Origin: Thioalkalivibrio sulfidiphilus HL-EbGr7
GTDB lineage: Bacteria > Pseudomonadota > Gammaproteobacteria > Ectothiorhodospirales > Ectothiorhodospiraceae
Assembly (NCBI RefSeq): GCF_000021985.1
Contig: NC_011901.1
Location: forward strand, 1,550,001 to 1,614,000
DNA: 64,000 bases
Direction of reading: 5' to 3'
Shown: positions 56,674 to 57,825 of the stretch, in pieces
Position numbering within the stretch: the first letter of the stretch is position 1
Layout: the number at the start of each line of letters is the position of its first letter
The notes under the pieces: generated by a model
Told to the model about the DNA's origin: nothing
What the model saw: only the letters and a program-made list of their open reading frames with translations
Database searches by the model: none
Translations under genes and position numbers: made by a program

Positions 56674-57117
56674 TCAAGAGTTGGAGAGTGGTTTGATATC
56701 GAGCACAGTCTTTTCAAAATGCTGTCTCGCCTGCTGCAGTTTCTTTGTGTATTTGCCGTTTCGTGGCGTCAGAGCCAGGTAGTGTCGAAGTATCAGATCC
56801 GTTCGCGCGGCCTTGTACCCCCGCAGGTACGGTCGTACCTGTTCAAGCAGCCGGAGCGCCTGTCTGTTGTAGACGGCGTAGGTGTAGCTGGGTGAGTGGT
56901 GGGTCTGTGCAACCCGTTTTCGTGTGATCTTGCCGACCCCGAGGGTTTCTTTGACGAAGTCCAGCAGATTCCGCTCGGTGCTGCTGATGGTCACCGCGAG
57001 CTGGCGGTTTTCGTTGCGGTGTTTCCGGGTGAGGGTGACCGTGCCTTCTCCGTCAATCAGTCCAGCGATGTAGGCGGCGTCCACCTCGGGCAGCTTTTCC
57101 AGACTCATCCCTGTCAC
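56674..57117 (-). CDS. LAGLIDADG homing endonuclease
   Basis: It has 147 residues from GTG at 57117; ATG at 57108 is an alternative. One LAGLIDADG motif (AYIAGLIDGEGTVTL near 18) predicts a homodimer. The later basic segment RKHRNENRQLAV and a C-terminal positively charged tail are typical. It lies just beyond the tmRNA terminator, on the same strand, outside the group I intron. It may cleave the intronless ssrA gene and so spread the intron. That is inference from position. Confidence 0.85.
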   Translation of the reverse strand: MTGMSLEKLPEVDAAYIAGLIDGEGTVTLTRKHRNENRQLAVTISSTERNLLDFVKETLGVGKITRKRVAQTHHSPSYTYAVYNRQALRLLEQVRPYLRGYKAARTDLILRHYLALTPRNGKYTKKLQQARQHFEKTVLDIKPLSNS

Positions 57118-57156: not shown

Positions 57157-57193
57157 GAAAAAAGCCCTGACCGTTACCGGTCAGGGCTTTTAG
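57157..57193 (-). terminator. tmRNA terminator
   Basis: On the minus strand AAAGCCCTGACCGGTAACGG and its complement form an 11-bp stem followed by a run of T (CTTTTTT). It starts four bases after the encoded CCA end of tmRNA. Confidence 0.9.
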
Positions 57194-57213
57194 TGATGGT
57201 GGAGGCGGCGGGA

Positions 57214-57486
57214 CAGTCATCCATATCTTTCGATATGGGCTGGACTATACCTTCATCCTGTTGCCAGGATGCGGGGCGTGTTATCCACGGTATGGTTTTC
57301 CGTGAATCCTAGTGCCGGCTCTGTTCCCATGAACTCAGCCGGTCTATGAGTCTCTACAGGGCAGGCCTGAGGTTAGCCCTCTTCCTACCCCTCGGTGTTG
57401 CCGTAGCAGGTTGCCCTGCCGTAGGGTCCACCGATGTGAGCCCCGTTTTCACTCTACCCTTACGGGTAGAGGCGACCATTGTGTTA
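57214..57486 (-). mobile_element. Group I intron inserted in the tmRNA T-loop
   Basis: The 273-nt insert follows a 5' exon U (57487) and ends in G (57214), as group I introns do. A candidate guide GUCG pairs with exon CGAU, giving a U-G pair at the splice site. A P2-like stem TCTACCC-GTAA-GGGTAGA is at 57470-57453. The S-box AAGGTATAGTCC (57253-57242) matches the P7 strand of group I introns. A P9-like stem CCATATC-GAAA-GATATGG is at 57238-57221. It contains no ORF, so it is a minimal intron; the nearby LAGLIDADG gene may act in trans. Confidence 0.88.
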
Positions 57487-57700
57487 ATCGAACCCGCGTC
57501 CGCAGGACCTACATCCTTGGATACTACATGCTTAGTGCCGTCATTTGATTTTACGTCTGAGTCTCCGACGGACAGGATACCCAGACGCGATCCCGATTGG
57601 ATTTAACGGTTAAGACCCGGGCGAGTCCGCTCCGCGAGCTTGTGTGCGATGACCTTCAAGTAGGACCCACAAGCAAGTCCAGTCGAAGGTCTAGCTGGTT

Positions 57701-57733
57701 TTACGCAGCCAGAGCGTAGTTGTCGTCGTTGGC
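57701..57733 (-). other. tmRNA tag-peptide reading frame
   Basis: Codons GCC AAC GAC GAC AAC TAC GCT CTG GCT GCG TAA read ANDDNYALAA, the usual gammaproteobacterial tmRNA tag. It marks truncated proteins for ClpXP and related proteases. The frame is uninterrupted and lies outside the intron. Confidence 0.95.
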
Positions 57734-57825
57734 AACTATAGCGTAACAGCTGGTTTTACGAGGGAAGCTGTCTCCTCGGCATGCACCTCGGGTTTCGCGA
57801 ACCACGTCGAAGCCAGGTCGCCCCC

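Follow-up and report, generated by a model that had tools for sequence, protein, structure and literature searches.

A free-standing LAGLIDADG endonuclease gene beside an intron-split tmRNA gene in Thioalkalivibrio sulfidiphilus: a candidate for collaborative homing

The window analyzed here is a stretch of 64,000 nucleotides from Thioalkalivibrio sulfidiphilus HL-EbGr7 (NC_011901.1, positions 1,550,001 to 1,614,000), the genome of which is a single contig of 3.46 Mb. Within the window, the ssrA gene for tmRNA is divided by a predicted group I intron and is followed by a gene for a putative homing endonuclease. The features, all on the minus strand, are as follows.

57825-57197, minus strand: the whole ssrA (tmRNA) gene (RF00023, 178.8 bits; the CCA end was read from the sequence).
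57487-57825, minus strand: 5' exon of ssrA (RF00023, 178.8 bits; the 3' border was taken from the T-arm).
57214-57486, minus strand: predicted group I intron of 273 nt, free of open reading frames, at T-loop position 7 of ssrA (RF00028).
57197-57213, minus strand: 3' exon of ssrA (TCCCGCCGCCTCCACCA), from the sequence.
57487-57500 and 57200-57213, minus strand: the two halves of the presumed target (the T-arm), with the intron between them.
57158-57191, minus strand: terminator-like hairpin with a T tail in the gap between ssrA and the endonuclease gene, seen in the sequence.
56674-57117, minus strand: free-standing LAGLIDADG endonuclease gene encoding 147 amino acids (open reading frame call, Pfam and structural model).

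The original prediction placed the endonuclease gene 80 bases past the 3' end of the tmRNA and outside an intron that lacks a reading frame, and these points of anatomy were confirmed. The CCA end of ssrA is at 57197 and the GTG start codon is at 57117, with 79 bases between them; an in-frame ATG at 57108 would give a protein of 144 amino acids. Both the start and the end of the gene lie beyond 57214-57486, and no sense-strand open reading frame of at least 50 amino acids was found within this interval. The hairpin at 57158-57191 was absent from the output of a terminator scan. The possibility of a chance reading frame is untenable because the gene is conserved next to ssrA across many genomes. 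The closest named relative, judged by the endonuclease protein, is that of T. sulfidiphilus ALJ17 (95% identity).

The 147-residue protein was matched by Pfam families PF14528 (4.7e-9) and PF00961 (6.1e-6), both above the curated cut-off. It contains a single LAGLIDADG motif, IAGLIDGEG, whose D, G, E, and G residues are invariant across 23 intact proteins. Residue E24 of the protein is presumed to be the catalytic acid. Relatives of solved structure that were detected by sequence include I-MsoI and I-HjeMI. An AlphaFold2 model, calculated with a 23-sequence alignment from which locus L061 was omitted because its matched stretch crosses its own stop near the end, has a pLDDT of 92 and matches the solved folds of I-MsoI, I-CvuI, and I-CreI (Foldseek E 2.7e-8; Z 14.2-15.2). 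The label "HNH endonuclease", obtained from PHROGs (phrog_5046, 1.6e-26), is contradicted by the Pfam and fold results. From the model we are confident in assigning the product of 56674-57117 as a single-motif LAGLIDADG protein with an I-CreI-like fold. The likeness to I-CreI, I-MsoI, and I-CvuI extends over nearly the whole chain, but the identity is 18-23%, and those enzymes are encoded within introns of rRNA genes whereas the gene in the window is free-standing.

The intron matched RF00028 with a score of 33.7 bits, below the gathering score of 50; the E value was 9.3e-7 for a search of 801 bases. The fold of 57486-57214 has a z of -7.0, and a consensus fold of 23 related introns contains 73 pairs, 42 of which have changes on both sides. 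The borders follow the usual rules, with T at position -1 and G as the last base. When the exons are joined, the junction reads GCGGG-TTCGATT-CCCGC and the T-arm is restored; the resulting sequence, GGACGCGGGTTCGATTCCCGCCGCC, is identical to the T-arm in 32 genomes of the same family that have no intron. The interval 57214-57486 is predicted to be a self-splicing group I intron at the T-loop subsite, and T-loop position 7 is also the position of the tmRNA introns described in the available portion of PMC11915505. The symmetry of the joined T-arm is partial: of 30 centres tried, the best was that of the T-arm, with 6 of 11 pairs. No weight was placed on this symmetry, most of which is the T-stem itself. 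ARAGORN missed the intron-split ssrA in the window, and the RF00023 match draws its last ssrA segment from inside the intron. Split ssrA genes of this kind are therefore easily mis-annotated.

The family sample consisted of 47 genomes (the order comprises the same 47), which were searched for the protein, the intron DNA, and tmRNA. The protein was found in seven genomes and the intron DNA in the identical seven. All seven carriers have the anatomy of a collaborative homing pair, an intron without a reading frame in the ssrA gene that adjoins a free-standing endonuclease gene, although in genome G043 the contig includes no more than the 3' part of ssrA. In 32 of the 47, ssrA is complete and intronless with the T-loop TTCGATT, and there is no endonuclease gene; eight genomes without a complete ssrA match were excluded from this count. 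Part of the endonuclease gene has been lost in G045 and G043, and the intron is kept in both. On a tree of the 5' part of ssrA (38 family sequences, G043 left out), there are three changes of state, with intron and gene changing together each time; three paired changes are too few for significance.

Two further observations were made within the family. The chromosomal ssrA of G045 carries the intron and is accompanied by a broken endonuclease gene; this genome has a further ssrA, without an intron, on a contig of 302 kb (L039, G045:C2:111000-116000), where the T-loop is TTCGACT instead of TTCGATT. In G042 and G043 (loci L041 and L045), two small open reading frames downstream of the gene resemble, by eye, an antitoxin/RelE-type toxin pair.

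The class sample consisted of 369 genomes from about 182 families. The gene was found in 18 genomes and the P1 pattern of the intron in 20; G239, in which the 3' end of the intron lies at a contig edge, adds one. The co-occurrence of intron and gene that had been anticipated among relatives was thus observed beyond the seven family carriers: the intron is present in 16 of the 18 gene carriers and in five of the 351 noncarriers (Fisher p 7e-22, kinship not corrected). An intronless T-arm of the form GGACNCGGGTTCGAYTCCCG was identified in 164 of the 369; the remaining class genomes have other T-arms or no match, so that absence of the intron is to be understood as a lack of match to the P1 pattern. 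In G060 and G126 the gene is broken, there is no intron, and the TTCGATT T-arm is uninterrupted. Relatives that carry the intron without the adjoining gene were named in the original prediction as grounds for refuting it, and to some extent they exist: the gene is present in 16 of the 21 intron-bearing class genomes, and a full gene beside ssrA is lacking in the other five. A scrap is retained in two of these (G205, E 3e-4; G348, seen by eye, with no tblastn match), and G078, G128, and G137 gave no tblastn match to the gene in the flank examined. The decay that is usual for homing genes would explain these intron-only genomes.

A single contig scan of named genomes with a five-row alignment yielded 22 loci, including three that belong to the family of the window. 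In 21 of the 22, ssrA lies immediately before the gene, its CCA being 52-253 bases away from the matched stretch, and the intron is present in 19. Loci L072 (Seongchinamella unica) and L074 have no intron and carry the T-loop TTCGAGA. Locus L069 (Pseudohalioglobus sediminis) starts at a contig edge; the single tmRNA match above the cut-off in that genome is intronless, has TTCGAGA, and lies on a contig that ends 163 bases further. The same order of ssrA, intron, and gene was also observed in L067 (JALOOE010000471.1), a metagenome-assembled contig labelled Anaerolineae that is possibly misbinned.

The state of the T-loop was then compared with the integrity of the gene in 40 distinct loci, pooled from seven of the window's family, 19 other named loci, 13 other class loci, and L187, with duplicates counted once. 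A gene was scored as intact if it has no stop or shift over nearly its full length, which gave 28 intact genes (L070 among them, by coverage and stops) and 12 broken ones. The intron is present in 34 of the 40. Among the intact genes, 24 are accompanied by the intron and four are not (G412, G413, G414, and G420), and the T-loop of all four is TTCGAGA or TTCGAAA. Ten of the 12 broken genes have the intron, and two lie beside an open TTCGATT. An intact gene next to an open TTCGATT was found in none of the 40 loci, so that every assessed genome with an intact gene has either an interrupted or an altered target. The comparison of open targets by gene state (0 of 28 intact vs 2 of 12 broken, p 0.085) is not significant alone.

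The altered loop was examined in 117 relatives of S. unica, 62 of which match the intronless T-arm pattern. Their loops are mostly TTCAACT or TTCAATT, with TTCGAGA in four and TTCGAAA in one; the T-arm GGACGCSGGTTCGAGACCSGC, with the TTCGAGA loop, was found in none of the 369 class genomes. At least 700 bases are available behind ssrA in 23 of the 30 loci from S. unica relatives, and these were scored for the gene, which is present in three of the four loci with TTCGAGA or TTCGAAA vs none of the 19 with other loops. In G419, which has TTCGAGA, there is no gene within 1.5 kb, and the linkage of gene and ssrA in G412 was inferred across an end that resembles an insertion sequence. Three of the intronless carriers form one clade on the gene tree, and L187, which is outside the tree, is 83% identical to L072. 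Being close kin, the four intronless carriers may represent one event.

Relatives of the protein are also encoded by phages. A search with a 23-row alignment identified 69 viral contigs, and the phage proteins are 33-43% identical. ARAGORN found eight tmRNA genes in the 69 viral loci (402 kb), three standard and five permuted, and each of the eight either overlaps the endonuclease match or is no more than 100 bases from it; the gene and its 150-base flanks on both sides account for about 12% of this DNA. A ninth case was found in phage Lacusarx, one of three of 42 INPHARED matches examined in the record (the others being Caulobacter phage RBC11 and Gordonia phage WilliamBoone). Here, the gene is likewise stand-alone and homologous (33% protein identity), and it overlaps an annotated permuted tmRNA gene in which no intron was seen, whereas the ssrA of the window has one. 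In all nine cases the endonuclease gene is located at the T-arm/CCA end, which is the 3' side of standard and the 5' side of permuted tmRNA genes. No intron was seen in any of the nine phage tmRNA genes, and viral contigs gave no match to an intron of the window type in a search whose pattern covers a single intron start; the plasmids searched gave no match. No tmRNA was found in the other 61 viral loci, some of which are near tRNA genes, and no RNA gene is annotated in the stretch from RBC11. The paper on Lacusarx reports the tmRNA, and the word "endonuclease" was not found in the text available (PMC5648845). On a quick tree, the bacterial proteins fall on one side of a starred branch, and many of the phage branches are long. 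The phage neighbours suggest that the tie of the enzyme to tmRNA genes came first and that the intron joined later.

The homologue in phage WilliamBoone (L264, 3994-8362) is annotated as an HNH endonuclease and lies in a tRNA cluster, where it overlaps a tRNA-Ser gene. The T-arms of several phage tmRNA genes beside the endonuclease gene (L196, L199, and L262) are without the usual GGTTC motif, which might be another escape from the enzyme.

These results are probably best explained if the protein forms an I-CreI-like homodimer and acts as a homing endonuclease on the tmRNA T-arm, and if the intron provides the immunity and is also the passenger, as in collaborative homing. The proposed target would be the T-arm of intronless ssrA DNA, approximately GGACGCGGGTTCGAT/TCCCGCCGCC. 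A minimal group I intron lies within this target, and splicing would restore the tmRNA. With the target interrupted in this way, the resident ssrA gene would be expected to escape cutting. An encounter between this locus and an intronless ssrA would lead to a break that is repaired from the intron-bearing copy, and the intron would spread; the endonuclease gene would be transferred with it if the copied tract extends far enough. Dimerization, cleavage, and the cleavage site are inferred, as are gene conversion and the protective role of the intron. The idea is now better supported than inspection of the sequence alone would have allowed. Targeting of the T-arm and protection by the intron are favored by the co-occurrence, by the absence of intact genes beside an open TTCGATT, and by the position of the phage genes; the further proposal, joint copying of the intron and the gene as a block, fared less well, because the two lineages are largely shuffled. 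A point against the preferred explanation is that the 3' ends of ssrA attract other insertions too.

The closest known system is that of F-CphI and the psbA intron in cyanophage S-PM2, for which the accessible parts of PMC6083498 describe collaborative homing and demonstrate cleavage; collaborative homing is also covered in the available parts of PMC3984707 and PMC2988022. In both systems, a free-standing gene adjoins an intron-bearing gene, and a group I intron without a reading frame lies in the presumed target, where it is thought to block self-cleavage. S-PM2, however, is a phage, with a protein-coding host gene and an enzyme of the Endo VII motif, whereas the present case involves bacterial chromosomes, tmRNA, a putative LAGLIDADG enzyme, and many taxa. 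SegB of phage T4, as described in the same available part of PMC2988022, is also a stand-alone endonuclease gene in the neighborhood of RNA genes, but is of the GIY-YIG type. No endonuclease gene beside ssrA was reported in the titles and abstracts of the open-licence literature, among the matches listed.

A different possibility is that the intron, the 3' exon of ssrA, the terminator, and the gene insert into the T-loop as a unit, with the old 3' end displaced to a position downstream of the gene. No downstream homology would be needed, because the displaced 3' end of the donor can pair with the 3' exon of the recipient. In 37 loci, a stretch of 250 bases past the gene was compared with the T-arm and 3' end of ssrA, using 3019 control windows (99% point, 12; maximum, 13.5). 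A second ssrA 3' end was found behind the gene in six of the 37. Four copies are clear (L085 and L093, 26 of 26 bases; L072, 21.5, with the same terminator; L067, 15), and two are borderline and do not exceed the controls singly (L087, 13.5; L063, 12). L063 and L073 have a common terminator behind a decayed copy. Five of the six copies begin 18-34 bases past the matched end of the gene, and that of L093, which has a shortened gene, begins at 203. In L072, the loop of the displaced copy is TTCAACT, as in its relatives, whereas the working ssrA has TTCGAGA. These scars fit block insertion at the T-arm, but the integration of an island at ssrA would leave the identical mark, and att-like repeats were seen by eye behind the copy in G091. 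No displaced 3' exon was found in the window, where the score of 7.5 was matched by 41 of 77 locus control windows, nor, L073 aside, in 30 others of the 37. A blastn comparison (E 1e-3) of the regions downstream of ssrA revealed nothing in common between the 32 intronless family loci and the carriers; an intronless congener was sought among the relatives of G091 and G113 and not found, and no empty flank was found with which to map the right border.

Insertion as a unit is also opposed by the histories of the two partners. The introns are of two types, with mean differences of 0.18 within and 0.44 between types, and the gene distances are similar within and between them (0.387 vs 0.390). Mantel tests of gene against intron gave r 0.07 (p 0.11, n = 23), or -0.03 (p 0.69) when ssrA distance was allowed for; with full-length genes (n = 24), r was 0.13 (p 0.025). 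Intron type changes eight times on the gene tree, compared with a shuffled mean of 7.8 (212 of 300 shuffles were as low), and seven times when unassigned types were kept apart. G091 and G231 have a common genus, flank, and displaced 3' end, and their intron types differ; L072 has no intron at all. The Mantel and tree tests weaken block transfer as the sole mode, and the comparison of lineages speaks for a partnership that is renewed by exchange rather than one locked element. We regard insertion as a unit as possible, at odds of a distinctly minor order.

It is also conceivable, but improbable, that the gene and the intron are merely brought together by mobile islands, for which the 3' ends of ssrA are integration hot spots. 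In L145 (G060:C29:148500-161500), a direct repeat of 680 bases (98.8%), with an ssrA 3' end at its start and a remnant of the endonuclease gene, is found again 8.4 kb downstream, a pattern that would fit integration of an island at ssrA. Three loci from Seongchinamella relatives (L185, L186, and L187) have extra ssrA 3' ends at a distance of about 150-170 bases past ssrA; in L187 the endonuclease gene follows, and in L185 and L186 there is no such gene. The downstream regions vary within the family. Nevertheless, the gene is held at the short distance from ssrA given above in 21 of the 22 named loci instead of being scattered in long islands, the association is with the intron and the sequence of the T-loop, and permuted phage tmRNAs have the gene upstream, yet at the T-arm. 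No integrase was found near the ssrA of the window among the eight open reading frames scanned, a part of the total. Some LAGLIDADG proteins are maturases, and it is more doubtful still that the protein aids the splicing of the neighboring intron: this would account for the co-occurrence, and the model also resembles the bI3 maturase (Z 12.0) and I-AniI (Z 10.6), but ten loci retain the intron with a broken gene, five class genomes contain the intron but no full gene, four loci have an intact gene and no intron, and the phage relatives lie beside intronless tmRNAs.

A survey that bears on the preferred reading, a T-arm endonuclease with a protective intron, is PMC11915505, the available parts of which report tmRNA introns from 21 phyla, with an internal LAGLIDADG gene in 36 of 883 introns (4.1%; in P7.1 or after P9). 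Those introns share with the window the T-loop position and a LAGLIDADG partner, but their genes are within the intron, whereas that of the window is outside it, behind the 3' end of ssrA. The survey counts genes inside introns, and neighboring genes are not mentioned in the parts available. With an internal endonuclease gene in only 4.1%, the mobility of tmRNA introns is without an evident engine, and a neighboring helper is a candidate for this role. We judge the chances to be about even that a LAGLIDADG lineage has specialized on the tmRNA T-arm in phages and bacteria, in both standard and permuted genes. Immunity would come either from freely exchanged introns of at least two types or from a replacement 3' end with a changed T-loop that is not cut, and helpers next door would explain the low share of internal genes (36 of 883), at least in Gammaproteobacteria. 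If this is confirmed, collaborative homing, so far described in phages, acts in bacterial chromosomes as well. The tmRNA gene is present in nearly all bacteria; upon confirmation, one endonuclease family would link the tmRNA genes of phages and bacteria, and natural enzymes that recognize the conserved T-arm would be expected.
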